Of a DNA stretch of 36,761 bases, positions 3,304 to 33,335 are shown one piece after another. The DNA is from Piscinibacter caeni. GTDB lineage: Bacteria; Pseudomonadota; Gammaproteobacteria; Burkholderiales; Burkholderiaceae_C. Position numbers and translations under genes: made by a program. Each line of letters begins with the position of its first letter. Position 1 is the stretch's first letter. The stretch lies in NCBI GenBank assembly GCA_003265685.1, contig KZ836125.1:1-36761 (forward strand), read 5' to 3'. The notes under the pieces were generated by a model. It was not told the origin of the DNA, ran no database searches, and saw nothing but the letters and a program-made list of their open reading frames with translations.

Positions 3304-5232
3304 TCAGCCGCCTCGGCAATCGAGCCACAGCATCTGGTACGGCGCGAGCTCGAGCGGGCGGCGCAGGTCGGCATGGCCGCCGGCGATCAGCTCCTCGGCC
3401 GCGGCCGGCATGCCCGAGAGCACATGCGCCTCGATGCGCTGCGGCTGCTCGCTGAAATTGGCCAGCACCAGCACGCTGCCGCGTGCGGCCGGGCGCATGA
3501 AGCCCAGCACGTGCGGGTTCTTGCTCCAGAACGCGACCAGCCGGTTGCCCGCGAAGCAGTCGAGCGAGCGGCGCACCTCGATCAGCCGACGCAGCCCGCC
3601 GAAGAGGCGCCCGGCGTCGCTGGCGGCGTCGTGGCGCTGCGCGTAGCGCGCCGCGTCGCGGCGCGGGCGGTGCACCCAGCGGCTGTCGTCACCCTTGCCG
3701 GGCTCGTTCACGTAGCCCGGGTCGTTCAGCGTGCCGACCTCGTCGCCCAGGTAGAGCAGCGGGATGCCGCCGGCCGCCAGCGCCACGCCGTGCAGCAGCA
3801 GGATGCGCGCCACCGCGTGCGGGTCGTGCTGCTCGAGGCCGCACAGCGAGGCGCAGGTGCCGCTGATGCGGCAGTCGCCGGTGGCCGGGTTGTCCTGGAA
3901 CGGCACGCCGCGCGCGAAGCTGCCGGGGAAGCGGTTGACGTAGAAGCGGTTCAGGAACTGACGGTGGTCGAAGCCCCGGATGCCGAGCTGGATCGCGTCT
4001 TCGTCGGCGAAGGTCCAGCCGATGTCGTCGTGGCTGCGAACGTAGTTGACCCACGCGGTGCCGGCGGGCAGCGCATGGCGCCGCTCGAGCGCCTGCTGCA
4101 GCAGGCCGACCTGGCGCGTCGCCAGGCTCTCCCACAGCAGCGCCATCTGCAGCGGGTTGTAGGAGATCTGGCACTCCGCCGGCGCGATGTACTTCACCAC
4201 GTCGTCCGGGTGCACGATGGCCTCGCTCTTGAACAGCAGCGCCGGCGCGGCGATGCGCGCCAGCGCGTTGTAGGCACGCAGCAGCGTGTGCGCCTCGGGC
4301 AGGTTCTCGCAGCTCGTGCCCAGGCGCTTCCAGATGAAGGCCACCGCGTCCATGCGCAGGAACTCCACGCCGAGGTTGGCGATGGCCAGCATCTCGCCGG
4401 CCATCGCGGCGAACACCTTCGGGTTGGCGTAGTTCAGGTCCCACTGGTAGGAGTGGAAGGTGGTCCAGACCCAGCGCCCGTCCTCCAGCTGCGAGAAGGC
4501 GCCGGGGTGTTCGTCGGGGAAGATCTCGCGCAGCGTGCGCTCGTAGCGGTCGGGCTCGGTGCGGTCGGGGAAGATGAAGAAGAAGTCGCGGTACTGCGCT
4601 TCGCCCGCCTTCGCGGCGCGGGCCCAGTCGTGTTCGTCCGAGGTGTGGTTGAACACGAAGTCGAGCACCAGCGAGATGCCGGCCTTGCGCAGCTGGCCGG
4701 CCAGCGCGCGCAGTTCGTCGATCGTGCCGAGCTTCGGGTGCGTCTCGCGGTAGCTGCTGACGGCGTAGCCGCCGTCGCTGTGCGGCTCGGGGCACTTGAA
4801 CACCGGCATCAGGTGCAGGTAGGTCAACCCGAGCTCGCGGAAGTACGGGATCTGCGCCGCGATGCCGGCGAAGTTGCCCGCGTACAGGTCGACGTAGCAG
4901 ACGCCGCCGAGCATCACCTGCGACTGGAACCAGTCCGGATCGTGCTCGCGCGCGTCGTCCAGCGCCTTGAGTTCCGGCGGCCGCTCGCACCACTGGGCGT
5001 AGACGCCGGCCAGCAGGTCGACCAGCACCGGCTCGAAATCGAGCCGCTGGCCGTACAGCCGCGCCAGTTCGTCGCGCAGCGTGCCGAGGTGGCGGCGCAG
5101 GCGCGCATCGAAGGCCGGCCAGTGGCTGCCGCCCTCGCGCGCCACCCGGTCGCGCAGCGCGCGCCAGAGCCGGCCGAGCTGCTCGTCCGGCACGACCCAG
5201 TCCGCGCCCTGCGCGTGCTTCGGATCCAGCAT
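3304..5232 (-). CDS. Amylosucrase (GH13 subfamily 4)
   Basis: 642-aa enzyme that makes alpha-1,4-glucan from sucrose, releasing fructose. From the ATG at 5232 the catalytic residues fall at Asp295 (FLRMDAVAF), Glu337 (FKSEAIVHP) and Asp402 ([11 protein letters not shown]). These correspond to Asp286, Glu328 and Asp393 of Neisseria polysaccharea amylosucrase with a constant offset of nine. Other family marks are [13 protein letters not shown] at 191 and [21 protein letters not shown] at 353. The family length is about 630-640 aa. The start at 5232 has an excellent ribosome site (GGAGGG, 3 nt spacing); the open frame extends 16 codons further but into the promoter. No signal peptide is seen, so the enzyme is probably intracellular. 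It heads a minus-strand unit with NDH-2 and the GH15-like gene. Regulation is probably by a LacI-family sugar repressor, given the twin operators upstream. Confidence 0.95.
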
Positions 5233-5256
5233 GTTCCCTCCGTCTTGTTCGGTCGC

Positions 5257-5296
5257 CAAAGCGATTTGATTATCCTCCAAATCGCTTTGAATTCAA
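5257..5296 (-). promoter_or_regulatory. Amylosucrase promoter with twin LacI-type operators
   Basis: On the minus strand a -35 TTGAAT (5291-5296) and a -10 GATAAT (5269-5274) are separated by 16 bp. Two 12-bp sites, CAAATCGCTTTG (5278-5289) and CAAAGCGATTTG (5257-5268), each have the central CG and CAAA/TTTG arms of LacI/GalR-family operators. They are exact reverse complements of each other, and their centres are 21 bp apart, two helical turns. One fills the -35/-10 spacer and the other covers the expected transcription start near 5262. This layout fits repression by a sugar-responsive LacI-type protein, which is not encoded in the window. Confidence 0.7.
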
Positions 5297-5368: not shown

Positions 5369-5986
5369 ATGAGCCCTCTCAGCACGACGCTGCGCGAACG
5401 CACCGCCGCCGCCCACCGGCGCGTCGAAGCCACGCCCTTCGTGCGGACTTTGCTGGCCGGACGGCTGGACCGGGCCGGCTACACGCTGCTGCTGCGCAGC
5501 CTGCACGAGGTCTACGCCGCGCTCGAGTCGGCGCTGGGCGCGCAGCCTGCGCTCGCGCCGCTGCACCACCCCGCCCTGGCGCGCAGCGCGGCGCTCGGCG
5601 AGGACCTGGCCCTGCTGCACGGCCCGCGCTGGCGCGAGGAACTCGCGCCGCGCCCGGCCTCGCTCGCCTACGCCCGCCGCCTGGGCGAGCTCGCCGCCGC
5701 GCAGCCGCTGCTGCTGGCCGCGCACGCCTACGTGCGCTACCTGGGCGACCTGAGCGGCGGCCAGGTGCTGGCCCGCGTCGTGCAGCGCAGCCTCGGCCTG
5801 GACGGCGAGGCCGGCACGCGCTTCTACCGCTTCGAGGCGCCGGCCGGCGCGCTCGCGCAGCGCCTGCGCACCGGGCTGGACGCACTCGAGGTGGGCGCGG
5901 CGCAGCGCGAGGCCCTGCTGGACGAGGCGCTGGCGGCCTTCGGGCGCCACGAACACCTGTTCGCCGAGTTGCAGGCGGCGCGCTGA
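5369..5986 (+). CDS. bphO: Heme oxygenase (biliverdin-forming)
   Basis: 205-aa HO-1-type heme oxygenase. His16 in AAHRRVEATPF is the expected proximal heme ligand, and the distal helix reads YVRYLGDLSGGQ, with the Gly-rich kink diagnostic of the family. It cleaves heme to biliverdin, iron and CO. Biliverdin is the chromophore of bacteriophytochromes, and the facing gene is a bacteriophytochrome with the chromophore cysteine, so supply of chromophore is the likely job. It is convergent with bphP (21-bp gap) rather than in its operon, and divergent from amylosucrase (136-bp gap). No strong Shine-Dalgarno sequence precedes the ATG. An inverted repeat GACCT-N6-AGGTC at 5305-5320 lies upstream; its role is unknown. 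Confidence 0.92.
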   Translation: MSPLSTTLRERTAAAHRRVEATPFVRTLLAGRLDRAGYTLLLRSLHEVYAALESALGAQPALAPLHHPALARSAALGEDLALLHGPRWREELAPRPASLAYARRLGELAAAQPLLLAAHAYVRYLGDLSGGQVLARVVQRSLGLDGEAGTRFYRFEAPAGALAQRLRTGLDALEVGAAQREALLDEALAAFGRHEHLFAELQAAR

Positions 5987-6007: not shown

Positions 6008-8143
6008 TCAGTGGCCGCGCTGGAAGCGGCGGATGCGCTCGTGCAGCAGCGTGGCGCGCTGCGTCGAGGCCTCGAGCTCCTCGAGCACCGGCACCACCGA
6101 GGGCGCCGACGGCCCGTCGGCGATGTCCATCGCCGCCAGGCTGGCGTTGGCCAGGATCGCGCTGCCGAGTTCGTCCTGGCCGGAGGCCGCGACCACCGGC
6201 CGCGCCCGCGCGAGCGCCTGCTCCAGGTGCTCGCGCGCCAGGGCGGCACGCCGCAACGCCGTCAGGTTCTCCAGCACCAGGATGTGGCCGAGCACGGTGC
6301 CGTCGCGCGCCGGCACCACCTCGACGCGCAGCGCCACCGGCACGGGCGGCTCGAGCGCCAGGGTCAGCTCGGCGCGCCAGGAGCGGCCGTCGCTGCCGAG
6401 CGTGGCGAGGCGCCGGCGCGCGGCGTCGGCCTCGACGAAGCAGGCCGACAGCGCGTCCAGGTCGGGCAGCGCGCCCGCGTCGCGCCCGGTCAGGCGGCGG
6501 AAGGCCTCGTTGGCGAACAGCGTGCGGTGCCCCGCATCCGCGACGATCACCGCCTCGTTGGCGCCGCCGACCGTCGCGCGCAGGCGCGCGAGCTGGTGCT
6601 CGGCGATCAGCAGCCGCACCGCGTTGACCTGCACGATGATGTCGTTCAGCGCCGCGCCGATGGCACGCGCCAGCGCCAGCTCGCCGCCGGTCCAGGGCGC
6701 GGCGGTGCCGCGCACCATCTCCGACCAGGCGGCGAACGAACGCCGCGGCGAGAGCTGCAGCGGGTCGTCGCCGAGCATCGGCTTGCCGGGGTTGCCGGCC
6801 CAGGTGACCGACAGCAGCTGCTCCTTGCGCAGCCACATCAGGTAGTCGGGCCGGTGGTTCGACAGACGCACGGCGATCACGCCGCTCGCGGTGGGCGTCA
6901 GCGCAGCCAGCGCCGGGTTGGCCTGCTCCACCGCCGAGCAGGCGAACAGGTCCTCGCGCGGCCGGGACTCGATCCAGTCGCGCAGCGCGCGCAGCTGCGG
7001 CGTCGACGGCACCTCACCGGTGGTCAGCACCTCGTCGTCGTGGAACAGCACGGCGCCGCTGGCGTCCAGCGGCTGCAGCAGGGTGCGCGGGTTGCGCAGC
7101 AGGGCGAGGCGCCAGTCGCCCTCGGTCGAGGTGGCCTCGATCAGGCGCTGCTCGAGCCGGCGCACCTGGATCGCCACCTGTGCGTAGGCGTAGTTCTCGA
7201 TCGCCGCCAGGCGCGTGGCGATCACCTCGGCGAGCAGGTCCGAGGCGGCGCGCAGCGCGTAAGGCAGGCGCCGCACCGCGTAGTGATGGCAGGCCACCAG
7301 CCCCCACAGCCGGCCCTCGCGCACCAGCGAGACCACCAGCGTCGCGGTGACGCCCATGTTGCGCAGGTACTGCAGGTGCAGCGGCGACATGCTGCGCAGG
7401 CTGCACATCGACATGTCGAGTTCGGCCCCGCCCGGCAGGCGCGCCGGCTGCAGCGGCGCGGCCCGCGCGTCGACGTCGACCAGCACGCGCACGCGGTTGC
7501 GCAGGTACAGCTCGCGCGCACGCTGCGGGATGTCGCTGGCCGGGTAGTGATGGCCCAGCAGCGATTCGAGGCGCGGGTCGCGCGCCTCGGCGATCACCTT
7601 GCCATGGCCGTCGGGGTCGAACCGGTAGACCATGACCCGGTCGTAGCCGGTCAGGTCGCGGACCACCCGCACCACCGCGTCGGCCAGCGTGCCCACGGTG
7701 GCCGCGCCGTTGAAGCGCTGCAGGGCTCGCGCGAGCGTGCCGTCGAGGTCGGCGGGCACCGGCTCGGCCGGCTCGGGCTCGAGCTCGATCACCAGGCCCT
7801 GCCCCGGCACACGGTGCAGGCTGCCCTCGAAGACCTGCGGCGCGCCGCGTACCGGCAGCGTGGTGCGCAGCGGCGCCAGCTCGCCCAGCTGCGGATCCTG
7901 CGCCAGGTCGCGCACCACGGCGTCGACCTCGGCGCCGAGCTCGCGCAGGCGCCGGCCCAGCAGGTCGCCGTGCTGCAGGCCGAGCAGTTCGGCGACGTTC
8001 GCGCTCGCCTGCAGCACGGTCAGCGCGGGCTCCTGCAGCGTCAGCAGCAGGCCATGCGGCTGCACCGAGCCGGCGAGGTGGATCAGCTCGCGCTCGCAGT
8101 TGGTCAGGTCGGCCTGACCGAAGGCAGGAGACTCGTCGTTCAC
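6008..8143 (-). CDS. bphP: Bacteriophytochrome without histidine kinase (PAS-GAF-PHY-PAS-helical output)
   Basis: 711-aa red/far-red photoreceptor. Cys16 (LTNCERELIHLAGSVQPHG) is the biliverdin-binding cysteine. The GAF domain has PASDIP at 201-206 and ACHHY at 285-289. The PHY tongue carries LSPRRSF (464-470). A second PAS domain spans about 520-630. The tail, 655-711, is helical (AILANASLAAMDIADGP, then VLEELEASTQRATLLHERIRRF) and lacks the H-box, N-box and G-boxes of a kinase. This PAS-plus-helical-output layout is that of Rhodopseudomonas palustris RpBphP1, which acts by binding PpsR2 instead of phosphorylating a partner (known for that family; applied here by inference). The start is GTG at 8143 and overlaps the ppsR2 stop by 4 bp (GTGA), so the two are translationally coupled. 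Chromophore would come from the adjacent heme oxygenase. Confidence 0.95.
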   Translation of the reverse strand: MNDESPAFGQADLTNCERELIHLAGSVQPHGLLLTLQEPALTVLQASANVAELLGLQHGDLLGRRLRELGAEVDAVVRDLAQDPQLGELAPLRTTLPVRGAPQVFEGSLHRVPGQGLVIELEPEPAEPVPADLDGTLARALQRFNGAATVGTLADAVVRVVRDLTGYDRVMVYRFDPDGHGKVIAEARDPRLESLLGHHYPASDIPQRARELYLRNRVRVLVDVDARAAPLQPARLPGGAELDMSMCSLRSMSPLHLQYLRNMGVTATLVVSLVREGRLWGLVACHHYAVRRLPYALRAASDLLAEVIATRLAAIENYAYAQVAIQVRRLEQRLIEATSTEGDWRLALLRNPRTLLQPLDASGAVLFHDDEVLTTGEVPSTPQLRALRDWIESRPREDLFACSAVEQANPALAALTPTASGVIAVRLSNHRPDYLMWLRKEQLLSVTWAGNPGKPMLGDDPLQLSPRRSFAAWSEMVRGTAAPWTGGELALARAIGAALNDIIVQVNAVRLLIAEHQLARLRATVGGANEAVIVADAGHRTLFANEAFRRLTGRDAGALPDLDALSACFVEADAARRRLATLGSDGRSWRAELTLALEPPVPVALRVEVVPARDGTVLGHILVLENLTALRRAALAREHLEQALARARPVVAASGQDELGSAILANASLAAMDIADGPSAPSVVPVLEELEASTQRATLLHERIRRFQRGH

Positions 8144-9522
8144 GACGTGCGGGGCGTGTGCCGGTCGCGCCGGCGCCGGGCCAGATTGTCGCGGCTGACG
8201 CCCAGCAGCTGCGCGGCCGCCGCCGCGTCGCCGCCGCAGCGCTGCAGCGCGGCCTGGATGAAGTGCCGCTCGGCCAGTGCGGCCGCCTCGCGCATCATCT
8301 GCGGCAGGCTGGTGCGGCCGAGCTGCTCGTCCAGCATGCCCCAGGCCTGCAGGAAGGCACGCTGCGCCGCGGACGCCATGCCGGGCCCCTCGCCCGGGCG
8401 CACGATCAGGCCGATGCCCTCCTGGTCGCCTTCGGCGAGCCAGCTGGCCGACACCCGCGCGCGCTGCGCCGCGGCGCTGCCGCGCAGTGCCAGGCCGTCG
8501 CGCTCGGCCAGGCCTTCGCGGCGCGTGTCGGCCAGCAGGGCCTCGAGCGGCTGCTGCGGATCGCCGAGCCAGTCCGACAGCGCGCGGCCCACCAGCGCGG
8601 CCTCGCCCGGCTGGCCGACCAGCGCGGCAAAGGATTCGTCGCAGGCCCGCAGGTGGCCAGCGGCATCGGTGATCACCACCGACTCGCCGGCCTGGGCGGC
8701 CTGCAGGCGGCGCTCGCCGGCCGACGGCGCACCGTCGGTCGGGTCACGCAGGCGCAGCAGCAGCCGCTGCGACGCCCCGACCCGGAACGGCGTGGCCGCC
8801 ACGCTGGCATAAGCGTGCGAGCCGGCCAGCCGCGCACGCAGCTCGACCGGGCGGCCGCCGCTGCACGCGGTGCCGAGCAGTTCCTCGACCGCGGCGCGCG
8901 AATGGGCGTCGAACAGCAGCCCGGCCGGGCGGCCGAGCGGCGCGCCGTCCGGCCCCGTCCGGTGCGCGGCCGCGTTGGCCGAGAGCACGGTGCCGTTCTC
9001 GGCGTCGAGCACCAGCAGCGCGTCGCTGGCCACCTGGCGCAGCGCCCGCTCGCGGGTCTCGGCCTGGCGCGCGCGCCAGTAGCCGCGCTCGAGCTCCTGC
9101 TGGGCGTCGAGGAACTGCTGCTGGATGGCCGCGATCGCGCGCAGGTCGCGCCCGACGGCCAGCACCGGCCCGTGTGCGCCGAGCCGGATCGCGGTGTAGG
9201 CCACCGGGATGTCGGCCCCCGCGGCGCCCGGGTGGCTGACCTCGCGGCGCCGCGCCGTCCCGGTGCTCGCGACGTCGCCCAGCAGCAGCTCGATCTTGCG
9301 GCGCGTCTCGGCGGTGACGGTGTCGGCCCAGGCGCGGCCGACCCATTGCTCGGCCTCCGGCGCCATCGGCGTTCCGCCGGACTGCGCCACCCGGGTGATG
9401 ACGCCGCTGGCGTCCATCACCAGGGCGATGTCGCTCGACAGGGAGACGAAGGTCTGCGCCAGTTCGTTGACCCAGGGCGACAAGGCCTCCAGGTCGCTGG
9501 TACTGCCCGAGCGTTGGTTCAC
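8140..9522 (-). CDS. ppsR2: PpsR/CrtJ-family transcription regulator, divergent paralogue (PpsR2-like)
   Basis: 460-aa protein with the PpsR plan: N-terminal PAS-like region (residues 1-130), Q-linker helix (IQQQFLDAQQELERGYWRARQAETRERAL), two PAS domains and a C-terminal Fis-type helix-turn-helix. The GTG at 9522 was chosen because CAGGAGA lies 8 nt upstream and it gives the family length of about 460 aa. Compared with ppsR1 in this window, the recognition helix is changed: SRDNLARRRRDRH replaces SRQSLYVKLRRYG. The helix cysteine (EQLCIEAAL in PpsR1) is Phe (ERHFIQAAL), with another Cys shifted to QRCGG. It is 47 bp behind the 93-aa membrane-protein gene and coupled to bphP. By analogy with R. 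palustris and Bradyrhizobium it would be the light-antagonised repressor partner of the phytochrome (inference). Confidence 0.9.
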   Translation of the reverse strand: MNQRSGSTSDLEALSPWVNELAQTFVSLSSDIALVMDASGVITRVAQSGGTPMAPEAEQWVGRAWADTVTAETRRKIELLLGDVASTGTARRREVSHPGAAGADIPVAYTAIRLGAHGPVLAVGRDLRAIAAIQQQFLDAQQELERGYWRARQAETRERALRQVASDALLVLDAENGTVLSANAAAHRTGPDGAPLGRPAGLLFDAHSRAAVEELLGTACSGGRPVELRARLAGSHAYASVAATPFRVGASQRLLLRLRDPTDGAPSAGERRLQAAQAGESVVITDAAGHLRACDESFAALVGQPGEAALVGRALSDWLGDPQQPLEALLADTRREGLAERDGLALRGSAAAQRARVSASWLAEGDQEGIGLIVRPGEGPGMASAAQRAFLQAWGMLDEQLGRTSLPQMMREAAALAERHFIQAALQRCGGDAAAAAQLLGVSRDNLARRRRDRHTPRTS

Positions 9523-9569: not shown

Positions 9570-9851
9570 CTATGCCCCGGGTCGTGAGCCTCCGATGCGT
9601 TGGATCAGGTCCCAGATGTGGGCGATTCCGGCCAGTGCAAGCCAGAGGGCGGTCCAGGGCCAGGCGAGCCCGGTCGCGACGCTGCGCAGCGCCATCACCA
9701 GGGCGAAGCCGGCCCCGAGCATCGCCAGCACCTCGCCGGCGCGCGGTCCGCGCCCGGTGCGCCGGCGCCGCCACAGCAGCCAGGCCACCTCGACGAGCAT
9801 CAGGCCGGAGATCAGGTCGGCGGCAAGCGCCGCGTCGAGCCAGGCAGGCAT
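9570..9851 (-). CDS. Small membrane protein of unknown function next to tspO
   Basis: A 93-aa hydrophobic protein not recognised beyond its character. Three likely membrane segments are visible: LISGLMLVEVAWLLW, VLAMLGAGFALVMALRSVAT and PWTALWLALAGIAHIWDLI. A basic loop (RRRRTGRGPR) follows the first. It starts 14 bp after the tspO stop; a GTG at 9860 is an alternative start in the same frame. The ribosome site is weak, suggesting translation coupled to tspO. It sits between tspO and ppsR2 on the same strand, so it is co-transcribed with PGC regulators. The stop codon lies in a small perfect hairpin (9563-9577). It could be a PGC-specific membrane factor or a generic inner-membrane protein; I cannot choose. 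Confidence 0.75.
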   Translation of the reverse strand: MPAWLDAALAADLISGLMLVEVAWLLWRRRRTGRGPRAGEVLAMLGAGFALVMALRSVATGLAWPWTALWLALAGIAHIWDLIQRIGGSRPGA

Positions 9852-9865
9852 GTCAGGCACACCAT

Positions 9866-10372
9866 TCAGAACGGGCCGTTCAGGCGCACGACCTCGAGGT
9901 TGAGCAGCGCGGCGAATGCCACCCAGGCCAGGTAGGGCAGCAGCAGCAGCGCGGCGCGGCGCGAGCTGCGCCAGCACACCACCATCATCAGCAGGATCGA
10001 GGCCCACAGGAACGTGACCTCGGCGAAGGCCCAGTCGGGCCGGCGCAGGCGGAAGAACAGCAGGCTCCACAGCACGTTGAGGAAGCCGTTCAGCGCGAAC
10101 ACGATCAGGATGGCGCTGCGCTGGCGCGGCCCGGCCTGGCGCCACGCCGTCACGCCCGACAGCGCGGTCAGCGCGAAGATCAGCGTCCAGGCCGGGCCGA
10201 ACAGCACGTCCGGCGGTTTCCAAGGCGGCTGCTTCAGCTGCGCGTACCAGCCGCCCAGGTCGGTCGACAGCCCGCCGAGCACGGCCACGCCGAGCGCGGC
10301 CAGCGCCGCGACCAGCACGGCACGCTTCGACTGCGGCCGGTGCGGGTGGGCGACGGGCGCATCGTCAGACAC
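9866..10372 (-). CDS. tspO: TspO/MBR family tryptophan-rich sensory protein
   Basis: 168-aa outer-membrane-type TspO (CrtK of older PGC nomenclature). The signature WYAQLKQPPWKPPD lies at about 42-55. A further conserved stretch, ALNGFLNVLWSLLFF, is followed by DWAFAEV and PYLAWVAFAALLNLEVVRLN at the C-terminus, and five membrane helices can be counted. In Rhodobacter, TspO binds porphyrin intermediates and dampens photosynthesis gene expression under oxygen (family knowledge). The start is GTG at 10372 and overlaps the end of bchP by 8 bp. The N-terminal 15 residues are polar and His/Pro-rich. Its place between bchP and the two light regulators fits a role in tetrapyrrole sensing. Confidence 0.93.
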   Translation of the reverse strand: MSDDAPVAHPHRPQSKRAVLVAALAALGVAVLGGLSTDLGGWYAQLKQPPWKPPDVLFGPAWTLIFALTALSGVTAWRQAGPRQRSAILIVFALNGFLNVLWSLLFFRLRRPDWAFAEVTFLWASILLMMVVCWRSSRRAALLLLPYLAWVAFAALLNLEVVRLNGPF

Positions 10373-11555
10373 GGGCCAGCCCCAGCAGGTGCGCCATGTC
10401 CTTGAAGAAGATGCGCACGTGCGCGAGCGGCCTAGCCCGCACCAGCTCCTTGTTCATGTAGGCCTCGAAGGTGAGCTGCTGCACGTCGCGGTCGCGGCAG
10501 ATCGCGACGAAGCGCTCGCGGCGCCGGTCGCTGCCGTACCAGAAGCGCTGCATGATCCCCAGCACCCAGAACACCCGGCCGTGGGCGCGCATGAAGCGCT
10601 TGCGCGCCTGCGCCAGCGCGCGGGCGTCGCCGCTGCGCAGGCAGGCCTCGACCGCCTCCGCGGCCAACTGGCCGCTGGCCATCGCGTAGTAGATGCCCTC
10701 GCCCGAGGCCGGCGCCACGACGCCGGCGGCATCGCCGGCCAGCACCACGTCGCGTCCGTTGTCCCAGCGCGGCAGCGGCTGCAGCGGGATCGGCGCGCCC
10801 TCGCGGCGCAGGGTCTGCGCGCCCTCGAGGCCGCTGGCGCGGCGCAGTGCGGCGGTGGCGCCGCGCAGCGAGAAGCCCTTGTCGGCGCTGCCGGTGCCCA
10901 CCGAGAGCGTCGGCCCGTGCGGGAACACCCAGCCGTAGAAGTCGGGCGAGAACTCGCCGCGGTAGACCACGTCGCAGCGCGCGCCGTCGTAACTGGCCGG
11001 CGCCTGCTCGGGCGTGCGCAGGATCTCGTGGTAGGCGAACACGAAGCGCCCGCATTCGGCCCCGGGGATGGCCTGGCGCGCGAGTTCGGAGCGCGCGCCG
11101 TCGGCGCCGACCACGCAGCGCGCGCGCACGCTCGCCGCGCTGCCGTCGGCGCGGCGCAGGTGCAGCCGCGCGGTGCCATCGGCATCGCGCTCGAAGCGCT
11201 CGAAGCTGCCGGTCACGCGCACCGCGCCGGCCTGCGCGGCACGCTCGCGCAGCCATTCGTCGAACGGGCCGCGGTCGACCATGCCGACGAAGCCACCCTC
11301 GATCGGGATGTCGACGCGCGCGTCGCTCGGCGCCACCATGCGCGCGCAGCGGATGCGCGCGACCAGCAGGTGGTCGGGGATCTGGAAGTCGCGGATCAGG
11401 CGCGGCGGGATCGCGCCGCCGCAGGGCTTGATGCGGCCGGCGCGGTCGAGCAGCAGCACGCTGCGGCCCTGCCGGGCCAGCTGGTGCGCCGCCGTCGCCC
11501 CGGACGGCCCGCCGCCGATCACGACGGCATCGTAGGTGTGATCGGTCGCTGCCAT
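10365..11555 (-). CDS. bchP: Geranylgeranyl bacteriochlorophyll reductase
   Basis: 396-aa FAD-dependent reductase that saturates the geranylgeranyl tail of bacteriochlorophyll to phytyl after BchG esterification. The N-terminal dinucleotide motif is VVIGGGPSGATAAHQLARQG (11-30), followed by IKPCGGAIPPRLI, typical of the BchP/ChlP group. The middle contains CVVGADGARSELAR and the second FAD contact VLAGDAAGVVAPASGEGIYYA. The ATG at 11555 gives the family length. The start lies 37 nt inside the end of the preceding PucC-like gene, and the stop overlaps tspO, so bchG-bch2-bchP-tspO looks like one transcript. No upstream PpsR site was seen directly in front of this gene. Confidence 0.95.
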   Translation of the reverse strand: MAATDHTYDAVVIGGGPSGATAAHQLARQGRSVLLLDRAGRIKPCGGAIPPRLIRDFQIPDHLLVARIRCARMVAPSDARVDIPIEGGFVGMVDRGPFDEWLRERAAQAGAVRVTGSFERFERDADGTARLHLRRADGSAASVRARCVVGADGARSELARQAIPGAECGRFVFAYHEILRTPEQAPASYDGARCDVVYRGEFSPDFYGWVFPHGPTLSVGTGSADKGFSLRGATAALRRASGLEGAQTLRREGAPIPLQPLPRWDNGRDVVLAGDAAGVVAPASGEGIYYAMASGQLAAEAVEACLRSGDARALAQARKRFMRAHGRVFWVLGIMQRFWYGSDRRRERFVAICRDRDVQQLTFEAYMNKELVRARPLAHVRIFFKDMAHLLGLARV

Positions 11556-12835
11556 GGGTCGCCTGCCTTTCCTTGCACCGCCGATGCGGGCTCGATGGCC
11601 GCCGCCAACCGGGCGGCGACGATGAACAACAAGGCCTCGGCCCCGAACACGATCGCGTAGGCCTCGCCGGGCGAGGGCACGGCCAGGCGCACCAGGTCGC
11701 TGGCCACCGCGCCGAGCAGGCCGCCGCCGCCGAAGGCGATGGCCTGCGCCGCACCCCACAGGCCCATGCGCGTGCCCTCGCGGCCGGGCCGTCCGGCGCC
11801 GGCCAGCCGCATCATCGAGCCGATGGCGGCGATCGAGAACGCGCCGTTGGCCACGCCGAGCGCGAACACCGTCGCATGCAGCGGCCACGCGCCGCCGATG
11901 AAGCCGGCCGCGCACAACCCGGCCAGCGCCAGCGCCGAGGCGAGGCAGCCGCCGACCGTCCAGGCGCGCAGCGAGCCGAAGGCGCGGCGCCCGGCCAGCC
12001 CTGCCGCCAGCATGCCGGCGAACACACCGCCGTGCTGCACGCCCGAGAGCTGGGTCGTCGCGCCCGGGCCGAGCCCGAACACCACGCCGGCAAAGGGCTC
12101 GAGGATCAGGTCCTGCGCGCTGAAGGCGAGCATCGACACCGCGACGAAGATCGTGAAGCGGCGCGCCACCGGTTCGCTCCAGACCTCGCGCAGCGCGGCG
12201 CGGAAGTCGGGGTGCTCCTTCGCGGCCGGCGCCGGCGCCGCGGCGGTGGAGGCCTTCTCGACGCCCCAGACGGCCAGCACGGTGACCAGCCAGGCGAGCA
12301 GCGAGACGCCACTGCTGACCGCCACCAGGCGCGCGGGCGAGTACGGGTCGAGCCAGCGGCCGGCCAGGCCGGCGGTGATCGCGAAGCCGGCGATCATCAT
12401 CATCCACACCACGGTGGCCGCGCCGGCACGACGCCCCTCGGGCACGCGCTTGGCCAGCAGCACCAGCAAGGCGGTGCCGCCGCCGGCCACGCCGAGCCCG
12501 ACCAGCGCATAGGCCAGCGTGACCAGCACGAGCCCGGCCGCGCGGTCGGTGCCGGCCCAGGCCACGCCGAGCGCGGCGAGCGCCCCGCCCGCGCCGAGCA
12601 CGGCCATGCCGCCGATGATCCACGGCGTGCAGCGGCCGCCGACGTCGGCACCGAAACCCAGGCGCGGCCGCGCCAGCTGCACCGCGTGGTGCAGCGCGAC
12701 CAGCAGCCCCGGCACCAGCGCCGGCAGCGCCAGCTCGAGCACCATCACGCGGTTCAGCGTCGAGGTGGTCAGCACGACGATCGCGCCCAGCGCCATCTGC
12801 ACCAGGCCGAGCCGGAACACCCCCAGCCAGTTCAC
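11519..12835 (-). CDS. bch2: PucC/LhaA-family MFS-like membrane protein between bchG and bchP
   Basis: 438-aa protein with about 12 membrane segments, of the bacteriochlorophyll delivery (BCD) branch of the major facilitator superfamily. Family signs are the N-terminal LGLVQMALGAIVVLTTSTLNRVM, which matches LFQVSVGMALALLVGTLNRVM of LhaA in this window, then FSAQDLILEPFAGVVFGL near the middle and MGLWGAAQAIAFGGGGLLG near the end. The same gene (ORF427/428 or bch2) occupies this slot between bchG and bchP in other purple bacteria. The role is inferred as pigment handling or light-harvesting assembly; direct transport is not shown. The GTG start at 12835 overlaps the bchG stop (GTGA), indicating coupling. 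Confidence 0.9.
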   Translation of the reverse strand: MNWLGVFRLGLVQMALGAIVVLTTSTLNRVMVLELALPALVPGLLVALHHAVQLARPRLGFGADVGGRCTPWIIGGMAVLGAGGALAALGVAWAGTDRAAGLVLVTLAYALVGLGVAGGGTALLVLLAKRVPEGRRAGAATVVWMMMIAGFAITAGLAGRWLDPYSPARLVAVSSGVSLLAWLVTVLAVWGVEKASTAAAPAPAAKEHPDFRAALREVWSEPVARRFTIFVAVSMLAFSAQDLILEPFAGVVFGLGPGATTQLSGVQHGGVFAGMLAAGLAGRRAFGSLRAWTVGGCLASALALAGLCAAGFIGGAWPLHATVFALGVANGAFSIAAIGSMMRLAGAGRPGREGTRMGLWGAAQAIAFGGGGLLGAVASDLVRLAVPSPGEAYAIVFGAEALLFIVAARLAAAIEPASAVQGKAGDPWQRPITPTMPS

Positions 12836-13713
12836 GATGCGAGGGCCGCGCGCAGCGCGAAGGCGCTGACCAGCATGCCGGCGACGAAGAAGTTGATGCC
12901 CAGCGCGCTGTACCAGGTGGCGCGGGCCAGCGGCTCGGCGACGAAGCGGCGCATCAGCACCAGCTGCACCGCCAGCAGCGCAGCGACGCCGGCGGCGTGC
13001 CACGGGGCGCCCCACCACAGCAGCAGCGCGATCACGCCGGCCTGCGGCAGCGCCATGGTCCAGCAGGCCACGCGCGCGGCGGCATCGATGCCCAGGCGCA
13101 CCGGCAGCGAGCCGATGCCCATGCGCCGGTCGCCCTCGACCGACTTGAAGTCGTTCAGGGTCATGATGCCGTGCGCCCCGAGGCTGTAGAGCGCCGCGAG
13201 CGCGAGCGAGCGGGCATCGGGCAGCGCGCCGCCGGCCATCACCGCTGCGCCGGTGGCCCAGGCCAGGCCCTCGTAGCACAGCCCGCAGGCCGCGTTGCCC
13301 CACCAGCCGTTGCGCTTCAGGCGCAGCGGCGGCGCACTGTAGGCCCAGGCGAGCGCGAGGCCGAGCGCGGCCGCGGCGAATCCCCAGGGCCCGAGCGCGA
13401 GGCCCACGGCCAGCGACACCAGCGTCCACAGCGTGGCGATGTACAGGCCCCAGCGGCCCGGCATGCGGCCCGAGGGGATCGGGCGCTGCGGCTCGTTGAT
13501 CGCGTCGACGTGGCGGTCGAACCAGTCGTTCACCGCCTGGCTGGTGGCACAGACCATCGGGCCGGCCAGCAGCAGGCCCAGCAGCACCAGCGCCCAGCGC
13601 TCGGACAGCGCCACGCCCGAGGCGACCGCGCCGCAGCCGAAGGCCCACATGGGCGGGAACCAGGTGATCGGCTTGAACAGCTCGGCAACGGCCGACGGCG
13701 CGGGGAATGCCAT
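12832..13713 (-). CDS. bchG: Bacteriochlorophyll a synthase (esterifying prenyltransferase)
   Basis: 293-aa UbiA-superfamily membrane enzyme that joins bacteriochlorophyllide a to geranylgeranyl diphosphate. The first Asp-rich motif is NDWFDRHVDAINEP (62-75). The second region is NDFKSVEGDRRMGIGSLPV, with the metal-binding Asp residues. The N-terminal LFKPITWFPPMWAFGCG is characteristic of BchG. Eight to nine membrane helices are visible. No convincing ribosome site precedes the ATG at 13713, and the best promoter would start transcription almost exactly at this codon, so a leaderless mRNA is possible. It is 56 bp downstream of ppsR1 with its own promoter and overlaps the next gene by 4 bp. 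Confidence 0.95.
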   Translation of the reverse strand: MAFPAPSAVAELFKPITWFPPMWAFGCGAVASGVALSERWALVLLGLLLAGPMVCATSQAVNDWFDRHVDAINEPQRPIPSGRMPGRWGLYIATLWTLVSLAVGLALGPWGFAAAALGLALAWAYSAPPLRLKRNGWWGNAACGLCYEGLAWATGAAVMAGGALPDARSLALAALYSLGAHGIMTLNDFKSVEGDRRMGIGSLPVRLGIDAAARVACWTMALPQAGVIALLLWWGAPWHAAGVAALLAVQLVLMRRFVAEPLARATWYSALGINFFVAGMLVSAFALRAALAS

Positions 13714-13719
13714 CGGCTC

Positions 13720-13760
13720 ATTCTGGAAGCGACACTCCGGAGTGTCAATCCAGATTTACA
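13720..13760 (-). promoter_or_regulatory. bchG promoter with PpsR operator
   Basis: On the minus strand a PpsR/CrtJ-type site TGT-N12-ACA spans 13743-13760 and begins TGTAA, as in the classical consensus. Its last bases form the -35 TTGACA (13743-13748 on the plus strand reads TGTCAA). After 17 bp comes CAGAAT (13720-13725), a 4/6 match to a -10 box. A perfect 16-bp palindrome, GACACTCCGGAGTGTC (13731-13746), overlaps the -35 and fills the spacer. The arrangement implies direct repression of bchG by PpsR. Confidence 0.7.
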
Positions 13761-13769
13761 TGTGCCGGG

Positions 13770-15227
13770 TCAAGTTTCGTTGTCGCCGAGGTCGCCGAGC
13801 CCGTAGCGGCGCAGCTTGACGTACAGGCTCTGGCGCGAGAGGCCGAGCATCTGCGCGGCCGAGGCGCGGTTGTCGCCGGTCAGCCGCAGCGCCGCCTCGA
13901 TGCACAGCTGCTCGATCAGGTCGGTGGTCTCGCCGACGATGTCCTTCAGCGGCACGCGCCCCACCAGCTCGGCCAGCTCGCCGGCGGAGCGCGGCAGTTC
14001 GCCGGCGGCGCGCGGCTCGGCCGACAGGCGCCGGCCGACGTCGCGCACCGCGAAGGCGAGCACGCTGCGCCCGCCCTGCTCGGCCGCCGAGGCCGAGATC
14101 TCGACCTCGGTGCTGGCGCCGTCCTCGCCGCGCAGCAGGGTCGAGAACAGGCGCACCGCGCCGTTCTGGCGCACGTTCTGCAGCAGCACGCCGAGCTCGA
14201 CGCCGGTGCGGCCGAGCCAGCGGTCGAGCAGCTCGCCGCGCGCCTGCTCCTCGCTGCCGAGCTGGGCCATCGCCAGGAAGGCCGCGTTGGCCAGCAGGAT
14301 GCGCCCGTCGCCGTCGGTGAACACGAGGCCGTCGGGCGAGCTGCGCACGAAGCCGAGCAGCAGGTTGTCGCCCTCGCCCGCCACCGCGGCGCGCGCCTCG
14401 GCGCCGACCCGTGTCAGGCGCACCAGCAGCAGCGAGGCGTCGTCCTGCCGGAAGCTGGACAGGGCCACGCTGACGCGCTCGCCGCCGTCGGCCAGCGTGG
14501 CGCGCACCGGTTCGCTCTTGCGCGCGGCGCGCGCCGCGGCCAGCGCCGCCTGCAGCGGGCGGGCGCCGGGCTGCTCGAACAGGGCCGTCAGCGAGCTGCC
14601 GGCGATCCGGCGCGCGCTGCTGCCGCCGATCAAGGCCGTGGCGGCGGGATTGGCCTCGAGGATCTTCAGCGTCGCCGCGTCGGCGATCAGCACCGCTTCG
14701 GACGAGGACTGGAACAGGTGGCGATAGCGTGTCTCGGCCTGGCGGAAGCGCCAGTAGTCGCGCTCCATCGCCTGCTGGGCCTCGATCAGGCGCAGCTGCA
14801 GCGCCTCGGTGGCACGCAGGTCGCGTCCGATCACCACGGTGCGCACCGCGCCGCTGTTGGCGCTGCCGAGCTGCACCGCGGAATAGAGCACCGGCCAATC
14901 GCTGCCGCTGGGCGAGGGATGGTTGACCTGGCGCCAGCGCGGGGCCTGCGCCGCGTCGCGCAGCAGCGCCTCGACCTTGACGCGGCTCTCGACGGTGACG
15001 ATGTCGAGCCAGGACCGGCCGACCCACTGCCCGGCGTTCTCGGCCGCCGCCGCCTCGCTGCCGACGATCACGTCGCGGATCACGCCTTCCGCGTCGAGCA
15101 TCAGCGCGACATCGCTGGCCGCCGCCACGAGACGCTGCACGTCCGCACCCTCCAGGTCACCCAGCGCGGCCTTCCCTGACGGCCTGCGCCTGCCCGCCCC
15201 GATCGGACCGCGGGTCGATGTTTTCAT
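13770..15227 (-). CDS. ppsR: PpsR/CrtJ photosynthesis regulator (canonical copy)
   Basis: 485-aa repressor of pigment and light-harvesting genes. Order: N-terminal PAS-like region, Q-linker (LQLRLIEAQQAMERDYWRF), two PAS domains and a Fis-type helix-turn-helix whose recognition part SRQSLYVKLRRYG is the standard PpsR form. The only cysteine in the whole protein is in this DNA-binding domain (EQLCIEAAL), equivalent to the redox-active cysteine of Rhodobacter CrtJ/PpsR; the second, mid-protein cysteine of Rhodobacter is absent. The N-terminal 20 residues are basic and look like an unstructured extension compared with the paralogue. It starts 31 bp after aerR, reproducing the aerR-crtJ pairing of Rhodobacter. 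The Shine-Dalgarno sequence is weak. The TGT-N12-ACA sites at bchG and bchF/aerR are its likely targets. Confidence 0.95.
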   Translation of the reverse strand: MKTSTRGPIGAGRRRPSGKAALGDLEGADVQRLVAAASDVALMLDAEGVIRDVIVGSEAAAAENAGQWVGRSWLDIVTVESRVKVEALLRDAAQAPRWRQVNHPSPSGSDWPVLYSAVQLGSANSGAVRTVVIGRDLRATEALQLRLIEAQQAMERDYWRFRQAETRYRHLFQSSSEAVLIADAATLKILEANPAATALIGGSSARRIAGSSLTALFEQPGARPLQAALAAARAARKSEPVRATLADGGERVSVALSSFRQDDASLLLVRLTRVGAEARAAVAGEGDNLLLGFVRSSPDGLVFTDGDGRILLANAAFLAMAQLGSEEQARGELLDRWLGRTGVELGVLLQNVRQNGAVRLFSTLLRGEDGASTEVEISASAAEQGGRSVLAFAVRDVGRRLSAEPRAAGELPRSAGELAELVGRVPLKDIVGETTDLIEQLCIEAALRLTGDNRASAAQMLGLSRQSLYVKLRRYGLGDLGDNET

Positions 15228-15258: not shown

Positions 15259-16152
15259 TCAGTAGCGTTTCACTCGGCCGGCAATACTGCTCTCGGCCAC
15301 GGCGGGTGCTTCGCTGCCATCCGGGGCGGAGGCGTCGGCCCCCACCTCGCGCGCCAGGTGCGGCTTCAGGAAGAACACCGGCCCGCCGACGAGTATCGGC
15401 AAGCCCCGGTTGCACGACGCGCTGCGCACTGCGGCGATGCAGCCGGGCAACCAGTCGAGCCGAGCTTCGCTGCCGACCGAGAAACCGACCACGTCGAACC
15501 ATTCGCGCCGCACCGCCGAGATCGGGTCGGTGTCCGATCCTGCGCCCCCGGCCACGACCTCCCATCCGGCTCGGCGAAAGAACTCGGCGACCATCGACAG
15601 GCCGAAGGTGTGCTGCTCGCCCGGCACGCGTACCAGCAACACGCGACGCCCGTTGGGCGGATGACCCACCTCGACCCCGAAGGCCGGGCTCAATTCTCGC
15701 ATCATTCGCTGCAGGCGCCCGAGGCCCACCGTCACGCCGGTGAAATCGCACTCGTCGTCCGCCCACAGTTCGCCCAGGCGTCGCGCCACCGGCGCGAACA
15801 GGTCGACCAGGATGGTCTCGACGGACAAGGGCCGGGCCCGCAGTTCGGCAAGGCGCTCGGCCAGTCGCGCCTCGGGCGCACTGGCCACCAGGCGCGCAAA
15901 GGCATCCACCGCGGACGGCTCCAGCGCCACCGAGCGTGCATCGTTGCAGGCCTCCGGGTGATCGGCCAGCCGGTGCGCGGCGGCCAGACGCGGAATCACG
16001 TCGCGCTCGAGCGCACGTGCCAGCAAGGCCATGCGCTGCGATGCGGAGACGGTCGACGGGGAATTCTCGGAGGATGCGCCGCGCTGCCGTTGCGCCTGCG
16101 CGTCCGAGCGCGCGGCGGGTGACGATGTCCCTGCCTTCGGACCACCTTGCAT
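15259..16152 (-). CDS. aerR: AerR/PpaA cobalamin-binding antirepressor of PpsR
   Basis: 297-aa cytosolic regulator. Residues 1-35 are polar and low-complexity. Residues 105-160 form the helical cap (LSVETILVDLFAPVARRLGELWADDECDF). The B12-binding Rossmann-like domain follows: VLLVRVPGEQHTFGLSMVAEFF, with His181 in the position of the cobalamin-interacting histidine of AerR/PpaA, then VGFSVGSEARLDWL and PILVGGPVFF. In Rhodobacter this protein binds B12 and modulates CrtJ/PpsR DNA binding. The ATG at 16152 was chosen for its strong AGGAGGG site 4 nt upstream. The frame stays open for 79 more codons to 16389, so a longer form like Rhodobacter LAerR cannot be excluded, though that stretch has no domain character. 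It forms a transcript with ppsR. Confidence 0.92.
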   Translation of the reverse strand: MQGGPKAGTSSPAARSDAQAQRQRGASSENSPSTVSASQRMALLARALERDVIPRLAAAHRLADHPEACNDARSVALEPSAVDAFARLVASAPEARLAERLAELRARPLSVETILVDLFAPVARRLGELWADDECDFTGVTVGLGRLQRMMRELSPAFGVEVGHPPNGRRVLLVRVPGEQHTFGLSMVAEFFRRAGWEVVAGGAGSDTDPISAVRREWFDVVGFSVGSEARLDWLPGCIAAVRSASCNRGLPILVGGPVFFLKPHLAREVGADASAPDGSEAPAVAESSIAGRVKRY

Positions 16153-16318
16153 CGAACCCTCCTGGCTCTTGTCTCTCGTACTTCTCGGGAGTGACTGCTC
16201 GAGGGCCTTGGAGGGGCGAGTCTTTGCAGCGCTTCGCCAATGCTCGGGAGACAGACGGGCGGATCGTTGTTGCCGGATCTTCCTGTTGCGGACGAAGGAC
16301 GGGGTCGGTGAGCACGGG

Positions 16319-16347
16319 TTTTTACTCCTCGACCCGCCATGCGTCAA
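16319..16347 (-). promoter_or_regulatory. Second candidate aerR promoter
   Basis: On the minus strand TTGACG (16342-16347) and TAAAAA (16319-16324) are separated by exactly 17 bp. Transcription would start near 16312, leaving a leader of about 160 nt before aerR. No PpsR site overlaps it, so it might give PpsR-independent expression. The prediction rests on box similarity only. Confidence 0.35.
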
Positions 16348-16400
16348 ATGCTCGGCCTGCGCGACGTGATGCACCGCCGCATCGGTCAACCATGAGGGAC

Positions 16401-32543: not shown

Positions 32544-33335
32544 TCAAGCCTCGTCGCCGGCGTCGTGCAGCCGCGCGATGCTGTCGACGGTGCGCAGCAC
32601 CTCGGCCTCCGCGAGCGGCGGGCGGCAATGGCGATGATTCCACGCCAGCAGCAGTTCGGCGACCACCTCGCGTTCCACGCCGCGCTGCATCAGGTGGCCG
32701 GCCAGCGAGGCGATGGTGTTGTTGCGCGCCCCTTCGTCGACCCCTTCGCGCACCAGGCGGCGCCAGTGCAGGCGCGAGTGGCCGATCGGCCGCTGCAGGC
32801 CGCCGAAATGCGGCGGCAGCGGCGCCAGCGGGACCTGCCCGGGCGCGCGGCCCGCCGCCCACTCGTAGCGCCGGCCGTTCGGGTGCACCGAGGGCGGCGC
32901 GACGACGCAGCCGCCGTCGCCGCGCAGGTCGATGCCCGGCCGCAGCGCGACCCGGTTCGCGACGACACCGCCCGGGTGCGCGTAGTACAGGTGGCGCCCG
33001 CCGCCACCGGTGGCCGCTTCGACGGTGGGCAGCAGCGGACCATGCTCGGCCTCGGCCGCCGCCAGGCTCTCGGCACCGCCGTGGCGCGGGTCGACGTCGA
33101 CCACGACGAGGCCCGACACCCGCCCGGTGACCAGGCCCAGGTTGGCCTCGGTCCAGTGCGCGAACCAGCGCGTGATGTCGCCGGGGCCCGCGGCCTGCTG
33201 CTCGAAGGCGCGCCAGGCGACGATGGGGCGCTTGCCGCGCGCCTGCATTGGGATCACCGACCAGCCGCGCGCCGCACAGGCCAGCGCGGCCTCGAGCATC
33301 GGCGAGGGGTCGGTGCCGGCCCGTTGTTTGCTCAT
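32544..33335 (-). CDS. Stand-alone bifunctional primase-polymerase (Prim-Pol plus PriCT-like tail)
   Basis: 263 aa. Residues 12-185 form an archaeo-eukaryotic-type Prim-Pol domain: RGWSVIPMQARGKRPIVAW, then the metal-binding DVD at 80-82 (LVVVDVDPRHGG), GGGGRHLYY with His115, and GIDLRGDGGCVVAPPS with Asp136. Residues 200-258 (GARNNTIASLAGHLMQRGV to VLRTVDSIARLH) match the PriCT helical domain. Such proteins usually come from phages, plasmids or integrative elements and are fused or adjacent to a helicase, which is missing here. The ribosome site AGAGGG is adequate. No integrase, att site or transposase was seen nearby. Confidence 0.9.
   Translation of the reverse strand: MSKQRAGTDPSPMLEAALACAARGWSVIPMQARGKRPIVAWRAFEQQAAGPGDITRWFAHWTEANLGLVTGRVSGLVVVDVDPRHGGAESLAAAEAEHGPLLPTVEAATGGGGRHLYYAHPGGVVANRVALRPGIDLRGDGGCVVAPPSVHPNGRRYEWAAGRAPGQVPLAPLPPHFGGLQRPIGHSRLHWRRLVREGVDEGARNNTIASLAGHLMQRGVEREVVAELLLAWNHRHCRPPLAEAEVLRTVDSIARLHDAGDEA

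Follow-up and report, generated by a model that had tools for sequence, protein, structure and literature searches.

A bacteriophytochrome and a PpsR paralogue with a diverged DNA-reading end encoded together in a burkholderial photosynthesis gene cluster

The DNA analysed here, called the window, is positions 1 to 36,761 of contig KZ836125.1 of Piscinibacter caeni (assembly GCA_003265685.1; 36,761 nucleotides). The genes in question are bphP, encoding a bacteriophytochrome without a kinase, and ppsR2, encoding a paralogue of PpsR/CrtJ. An earlier note, made from the sequence alone, described a sensor of the RpBphP1 kind whose partner is a PpsR paralogue, both encoded within a photosynthesis cluster of Burkholderiales, and our analysis agrees. 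Sequence comparison confirms the BphP-PpsR2 pair and shows that it occurs widely and is of a type already known; what is new is the divergence of PpsR2 in betaproteobacteria. Beyond that note, we found a heme oxygenase gene convergent with bphP, a diverged C-terminal helix-turn-helix (HTH) in PpsR2, and a PpsR-type site upstream of bchG. We propose, tentatively and with somewhat less than even confidence, that bphP, ppsR2 and the heme oxygenase gene form a biliverdin light-sensing module in which betaproteobacterial PpsR2 would modulate PpsR1 under the control of light, as an antirepressor, and would not be an operator-bound repressor.

The window PpsR2 has the N-PAS, Q-linker, PAS1 and PAS2 architecture (structure match 4hh2, 1.6e-27), but the conserved operator-reading helix of PpsR/CrtJ, of the LSRQSLYVKLRR type, was not found in it. 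Its TIGR02040 score of 242.1 bits falls below the cut-off of 275.4, which the PpsR2 of some relatives exceeds. Mean pairwise identities were determined by region for 59 betaproteobacterial PpsR2, 22 PpsR1 of the same order and 7 alphaproteobacterial PpsR2 rows (L062, L109, L110 and the alphaproteobacterial PpsR1 were left out; L numbers denote loci). Betaproteobacterial PpsR2 and PpsR1 had values of 48.2% vs 48.6% for N-PAS, 68.1% vs 67.9% for the Q-linker, 41.9% vs 49.0% for PAS1, 33.0% vs 56.1% for PAS2, and 34.1% vs 81.6% for HTH helices 1-2. The recognition helix had 23.3% identity in betaproteobacterial PpsR2, 98.5% in PpsR1 and 76.2% in alphaproteobacterial PpsR2, and a Lys-to-Arg shift was common to 39 of the 59 PpsR2 rows. 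For the 19 genomes carrying both proteins, the values for PpsR2 and PpsR1 were 41 vs 50 for N-PAS and 13 vs 98 for the recognition helix. An HTH profile built from 26 PpsR1 rows gave 100-109 bits for PpsR1, 51-64 for alphaproteobacterial PpsR2 (7/7), and at most 31.7 for the other 62 PpsR2 (median 8.6, window 21.1; L110 repeats L057). Because the recognition helix of PpsR2 has diverged or the HTH has been lost, while the PpsR1 HTH is near-invariant, PpsR2 probably acts through PpsR1, so that the light signal would take a route other than the textbook one.

At some loci PpsR2 ends after PAS2 and the HTH is absent: L045, L050 (Methyloversatilis), L113, L114, L117 and L118 (burkholderial family f30), and L062. 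The distance from these genes to bphP is -23 to +34 bp, too little for an HTH remnant, and the loci still hold a bphP with its tail. On the PpsR tree, with the HTH state coded by hand as intact versus lost or diverged, at least three changes were required. The HTH cysteine is present in 24 betaproteobacterial PpsR1 rows (Ser in L056 and L086) and missing from most betaproteobacterial PpsR2, the exceptions being L115 and L116; it is present in three alphaproteobacterial PpsR2 (L058, L061, L089). The PpsR2 proteins of R. palustris and Bradyrhizobium are said to be without it (PMC4452267; here and below, papers cited by PMC number are represented by part of their text, and what is drawn from them applies to that part). 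Locus L062, with an HTH-less PpsR2, belongs to a Longimicrobiales metagenome-assembled genome (MAG), and its BphP has no match to the Cys motif.

Several observations weigh against our proposal. The generic HTH_8 family (PF02954) matches the window PpsR2 at 35.2 bits, near the 39.7 of PpsR1, and it matches 29 of the 39 members of alignment A1 (2 of the 39 being alphaproteobacterial), from which HTH-less loci were excluded; the AlphaFold model of the window PpsR2 still shows an HTH. The retained PpsR2 HTHs had ratios of nonsynonymous to synonymous substitution (dN/dS) of 0.05-0.54 in 11 close pairs, and because these are below 1 the HTH is not decaying freely. In the comparison of the window with L002, PpsR2 had a lower HTH ratio (0.15) than PpsR1 (0.35, with dS only 0.04), and the fastest-changing part of PpsR2 was PAS2 (0.75). 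From outside the sequences, the published small-angle X-ray scattering (SAXS) model for the complex from R. palustris places the contacts on the HTH and PAS2 of PpsR2 (PMC6899989), and the engineered Q-linker/PAS1 fragment QPAS1 is reported to be without oligomerisation. For comparison, HTH dN/dS in PpsR1 was 0-0.08 in seven pairs, the window pair standing apart at 0.35, and the N-PAS, Q-linker and PAS1 part of PpsR2 had 0.01-0.34 in 14 pairs. Complete HTH loss as a general rule was rejected on the PF02954 matches, and neutral HTH decay on dN/dS. We conclude that the HTH fold is often kept in betaproteobacterial PpsR2 and that PpsR-specific reading apparently is not.

The sequences show what the module consists of, that its genes are inherited together, that the N-PAS and Q-linker of PpsR2 are conserved and its HTH diverged or lost, and that the site at bchG is conserved; binding, mixed oligomers, antirepression and the sign of the response to light are inferred from them. 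In the mechanism that we propose, light would alter the state of BphP, and its helical tail would then bind or release PpsR2 via the Q-linker/PAS1 segment. Betaproteobacterial PpsR2, not reading the PpsR operator, could pass the signal by protein contact to PpsR1, which keeps its operator-reading HTH; mixed PpsR1/PpsR2 oligomers may bind DNA poorly. The PpsR-type site before bchG, at the head of the run that ends with ppsR2-bphP, would close a feedback loop. QPAS1 alone binds BphP1 (PMC13058837, PMC9120076). Because the tail is kept beside HTH-less PpsR2, contact through the Q-linker and PAS1 is favored over contact through the HTH as modelled by SAXS. LdaP of Dinoroseobacter shibae is a precedent for a light-dependent PpsR antirepressor (PMC10890935). 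In aerobic phototrophs, bacteriochlorophyll synthesis is subject to inhibition by light (PMC12654162), which makes a repressing sign of the response possible. In a bolder version, which we regard as rather unlikely, PpsR2 would have stopped reading operators at least twice independently (in the main clade and in f30 after the module arrived there) and would now act on PpsR1 as a dominant-negative subunit gated by light; BphP, once activated by light, may then remove PpsR2 and let PpsR1 repress, so that light would repress bacteriochlorophyll synthesis, a sign opposite to that in Rhodopseudomonas.

The site upstream of bchG was surveyed in 25 entries, with bchG starts estimated by alignment (L110 again repeating L057). 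In 16 of them a TGT-N12-ACA site ending in the hexamer TTGACA precedes bchG by 47-77 bp, and 7 further entries had an ACG variant, giving 23/25; it was absent in L056 and L086, the two alphaproteobacterial entries. Within 400 bp upstream of ppsR2, exact TGT-N12-ACA occurred at 20 of 65 loci, with 3.7 expected; the window has none in that interval, and its overall count of 4 vs 2.1 expected is not significant. For these candidate sites we give weight only to the conserved position at bchG and to the excess upstream of ppsR2.

The sensor was found to be as the earlier note described it: the open reading frame, the Pfam matches (PAS_2, GAF, PHY and a C-terminal PAS, with no kinase domain) and helix prediction all show a kinase-less phytochrome with Cys16, PASDIP (201-206), PRRSF (466-470), a terminal PAS and a helical tail. 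Cys16 is expected to be where biliverdin attaches, as in other bacteriophytochromes. The short overlap of bphP with ppsR2 was likewise confirmed. With a Cys-bearing PAS-GAF-PHY core, no histidine kinase, a C-terminal PAS, the HOS tail, and ancestry shared with RpBphP1 apart from kinase-bearing phytochromes, the protein belongs to the RpBphP1 type (type 3). Among solved structures its best match is RpBphP1 itself (4gw9, 583 bits; best other protein chain 344), and a fold search agrees. None of 36 relatives (A2) has a kinase family among its matches, and the family ranges from 696 to 772 aa. Tail helices were predicted at 628-652, 658-675 and 683-709. The earlier note had suggested an alignment of the tail (655-711) with that of RpBphP1; the tail does align with alphaproteobacterial RpBphP1-like tails, and is common to both clades described below, the R. 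palustris tail lying outside the comparison because the 4GW9 construct stops before it.

Sequence correlates of bathy behavior in the sensor were mixed. Of the 56 betaproteobacterial rows, 50, the window included, have a PHY tongue of +4 (the others being +3 in L036, +5 in L012, +16 and +19 in L052 and L041, and none in L065 and L067); in the alphaproteobacterial clade it is +5 in 16/16 rows, as it is in L112. All known bathy proteins have a tongue of +5 (PMC12362586). By the correlates of the same paper, the window BphP has a tongue of +4, the Gly at PRXSF-8, and a residue other than Gln at PASDIP-3. Far-red (bathy, Pfr dark state) behavior of the window BphP is uncertain on these residues. 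The Cys-bearing BphPs of L041 and L052, with tongues 16-19 residues longer than that of DrBphP, fall outside the range of +0 to +10 given in PMC12362586. The same two genomes, Rubrivivax rivuli and AAP65, have elsewhere a ppsR2-adjacent BphP (L065, 9944-12037; L067, 9944-12034) that has lost the Cys region, PASDIP, PRxSF and the tongue and is presumably light-blind; it keeps the helical tail, and its partner is an HTH-diverged PpsR2. The dN/dS of this pair was 0.24 (0.16 for PAS9 plus tail), and the kept tail together with this ratio suggests that a role in protein contact can persist after light sensing is lost, which fits the possible binding of QPAS1 by apo-BphP1 (PMC9120076).

A scan of genome contigs confirmed 112 stretches, of which the best 80 were kept, and gave 79 loci. 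Of these, 66 (L002-L067, from 62 genomes) carry an RpBphP1-type BphP, some cut or frame-broken. A PpsR-like gene lies directly upstream of bphP on the same strand at 57 of the 66; in the remaining nine, contig ends cut L038, L049 and L055, the bphP frame of L054 is broken and its PpsR2 lies about 540 bp off, and L017, L035, L041, L052 and L066 have no adjacent PpsR2. A convergent heme oxygenase gene was found within 600 bp at 47/66 loci (L005, L027 and L063 have less than 600 bp of contig left). Placement of the module varies, as bchP, bchG or bchN was present within the fetched stretch at 16 loci only and was not found at the other 50, where the reach was 10 kb or less and often less contig than that. 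Eleven loci have the window-like arrangement (L002, L003, L016, L021, L045, L048, L050, L056, L060, L065, L067) and five have another arrangement with bch genes (L010, L054, L055, L057, L066). L066 is a Gemmatimonadaceae MAG with a frame-broken relative of the window BphP.

Reaction-centre genes (PF00124) were present in 56 of the 62 carrier genomes (45/50 plus 11/12); the six without a match (L017, L022, L045, L046, L047, L054) are all titled MAGs. In the window's order, 48 of 399 sampled genomes had PF00124, the window's own among them. Thirteen of these 48 phototrophs had a phytochrome match at E 1e-40, and 11 of the matches are of the full-length, kinase-less kind. A second PpsR (E 1e-15) was present in 10/11 genomes with an RpBphP1-type BphP vs 0/37 others (Fisher p 1.7e-9, kinship ignored); in that count three further genomes have one PpsR frame in two pieces and G730 has none. 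In 47/50 carrier genomes two or more PpsR matches were found, fragments among them (misses: G003, G016, G050). Locus L112 (genome G638) has a deep-branching kinase-less BphP with a heme oxygenase, and no second PpsR was found in that genome. In the literature searched, outside which most subscription papers lie, neither a burkholderial BphP-PpsR2 pair nor a PpsR2 with a diverged HTH was described; ORF350, a crtJ homologue of Roseateles depolymerans (PMC10037100), may be such a PpsR2.

In a quick tree of 87 BphP rows the kinase-less proteins formed one clade (support 99), divided in two. An alphaproteobacterial clade of 16 rows (100) takes in RpBphP1, family f30 and the Longimicrobiales L062; the window is in the betaproteobacterial clade of 56 rows (99). 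A mixture-model tree of 40 chosen rows (PAS-GAF-PHY) gave 100/99 for the kinase-less clade, 100/100 for the alphaproteobacterial and 98/96 for the betaproteobacterial clade; G638 formed a third branch, its position uncertain (93/78). Of the 14 outgroup phytochrome rows 10 were scanned, and all 10 had a kinase. Recent kinase loss, which the earlier note had named as one finding that would overturn its view, was rejected, since the kinase-less proteins are a single well-supported clade. In a quick tree with the HTH removed, PpsR2 gave the same two clades (14 rows, 96; 52 rows, 100), apart from PpsR1. A single BphP clade for all Burkholderiales was rejected (p-AU 3e-5) because f30 sits in the alphaproteobacterial clade. 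BchG, BchP and BchN of f30 group with betaproteobacteria (91/100, moderate support), so what moved in f30 was the module, without those bch genes. The f30 loci (L113-L118) thus hold a BphP-PpsR2 pair of alphaproteobacterial descent, its HTH lost or diverged, in clusters that look betaproteobacterial.

The host is a member of Burkholderiales, as the earlier note had deduced from the cluster layout: the closest relative of the window BphP among the matches listed is from Piscinibacter defluvii (94%). That note had also suggested a transfer from alphaproteobacteria or an independent arrangement. The order bphP-ppsR2-bchP-MFS (major facilitator superfamily)-bchG-ppsR1, with cycA or tspO between, is reported for Bradyrhizobium (PMC10569730), and the bphP-to-ppsR1 order was also found in G402 (L086; the search there did not cover the MFS gene), with aerR and bchF on the other side. 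Because the betaproteobacterial clade is separate and the gene order is Bradyrhizobium-like, neither a recent transfer nor independent assembly is supported. Most simply, the module would be an old part of the photosynthesis cluster in the window's lineage, although an ancient transfer in that lineage could still have occurred.

Other explanations were weighed against antirepression through PpsR1. The mechanism of Rhodopseudomonas, which the earlier note had carried over to the window, would have PpsR2 repress photosynthesis promoters directly until light-activated BphP takes it off. The same sensor architecture and gene order, the strict pairing, and the PF02954 match to the window HTH agree with it, but the recognition helix is not conserved, the HTH is missing at six betaproteobacterial loci, and the PpsR-specific HTH score is far under that of alphaproteobacterial PpsR2; with no PpsR recognition helix in the window PpsR2, we consider this relief of repression unlikely. 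A PpsR2 with a new, lineage-specific DNA specificity, controlling other promoters under BphP, would account for an HTH fold kept under purifying selection in many lineages and for the Lys-to-Arg shift in 39/59 rows. No common new recognition helix runs across the clade, however, and some members have lost the HTH wholly, and we judge this explanation distinctly improbable.

BphP could instead signal mainly to another partner, with PpsR2 merely sequestering or stabilising it. The five loci where BphP has no adjacent PpsR2, and G638, where no second PpsR was found, point that way, but the co-occurrence elsewhere and the equal conservation of the Q-linker and N-PAS make it very doubtful. That the module is a decaying vestige seems the most far-fetched: the losses in the ppsR2-adjacent BphPs of R. 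rivuli and AAP65 fit it, whereas the photosensory marks are intact in the window and most relatives, purifying selection is evident in the front half of PpsR2 and even in the Cys-less BphP pair, and the heme oxygenase gene is retained at most loci.

The window system resembles RpBphP1-PpsR2 of Rhodopseudomonas palustris and BrBphP-PpsR2 of Bradyrhizobium in its kinase-less PAS-GAF-PHY-PAS-tail sensor beside ppsR2 in a photosynthesis cluster, in the order of bchP, bchG and ppsR1, and in a second PpsR without the HTH cysteine; a heme oxygenase gene convergent on the pair also occurs at the alphaproteobacterial loci L059, L061, L086, L088 and L089. In contrast to RpBphP1 systems, the window pair belongs to a betaproteobacterial clade of its own, the tongue is +4 and not +5, His replaces Asn at PASDIP-3 (in the rows read), and the PpsR2 recognition helix is not conserved. 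The better-conserved half of betaproteobacterial PpsR2 contains the QPAS1 segment plus N-PAS, whereas natural PpsR2 proteins retain PAS2 and usually a diverged HTH. Like LdaP, the system would provide light-dependent PpsR antirepression in an aerobic phototroph; LdaP is a LOV blue-light protein, whereas here a bilin sensor would work via a PpsR paralogue. Gemmatimonas groenlandica BphP/BphO is likewise a bacteriophytochrome with a heme oxygenase in a phototroph outside alphaproteobacteria, but it is annotated as a sensor histidine kinase, and the part of PMC7844134 available names no PpsR2 partner.

Few photoreceptors behind light inhibition of bacteriochlorophyll synthesis in aerobic phototrophs are known. 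If the proposal holds, control of PpsR1 by a phytochrome via a PpsR paralogue that does not read operators would offer a route open to direct test in an order some of whose members are in culture, and the sign may be reversed from one branch of the system to the other. The natural HTH-less PpsR2 proteins bear on whether the contact site is the HTH/PAS2 end (SAXS, PMC6899989) or the Q-linker/PAS1 (QPAS1), and they are candidates for new optogenetic pairs.

Positions of the features are given in Table 1. The minus-strand run from bchG through the pucC-family gene, bchP, tspO, the small open reading frame and ppsR2 to bphP is unbroken (overlaps no more than 37 bp, gaps no more than 47 bp), and ppsR1 and the aerR-like gene stand ahead of it.

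Table 1. Features of the light module and adjoining photosynthesis genes in the window
Feature	Position	Strand	Remarks
Heme oxygenase gene, convergent with bphP	5369..5986	(+)	PF01126, 1.4e-51; expected biliverdin source
bphP, kinase-less bacteriophytochrome, 711 aa, GTG start	6008..8143	(-)	PAS-GAF-PHY-PAS-helical tail
BphP C-terminal helical tail, residues 628-711 (HOS domain, described in PMC6899989)	6011..6262	(-)	homologous to alphaproteobacterial RpBphP1-like tails
Cys16 codon of bphP	8096..8098	(-)	expected biliverdin attachment site
ppsR2, PpsR/CrtJ paralogue, 460 aa	8140..9522	(-)	overlap with bphP 4 bp
PpsR2 C-terminal Fis-type HTH, residues 406-455	8158..8307	(-)	recognition helix 444-455 diverged
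PpsR2 Q-linker helix and PAS1, residues ~127-262	8737..9144	(-)	QPAS1 counterpart (defined in PMC13058837, PMC9120076); helix 127-166 predicted
Small open reading frame, 93 aa, between tspO and ppsR2	9570..9851	(-)	no Pfam match
tspO	9866..10372	(-)	PF03073
bchP	10365..11555	(-)	TIGR02023, 503.6 bits, above cut-off
PucC-family (MFS) transporter gene	11519..12835	(-)	PF03209, 308.2 bits
bchG	12832..13713	(-)	TIGR01476, 347.4 bits, above cut-off
TGT-N12-ACA site (TGTAAATCTGGATTGACA)	13743..13760	(-)	30-47 bp upstream of bchG; end is -35-like TTGACA
ppsR1, full PpsR, HTH intact	13770..15227	(-)	TIGR02040, 510.6 bits
aerR/ppaA-like B12-binding regulator gene	15259..16389	(-)	PF02310

The window BphP is the sole PHY-domain gene found in its genome, and two reaction-centre (PF00124) genes lie on another contig. 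An amylosucrase-like GH13 gene (3304-5280, minus strand) adjoins the light module and, among the loci searched, has the same place only in L002. Near the end of the photosynthesis genes is a Prim-Pol/PriCT primase-like gene (32547-33335, minus strand; PF09250, PF08708), presumably of the kind seen on mobile elements.

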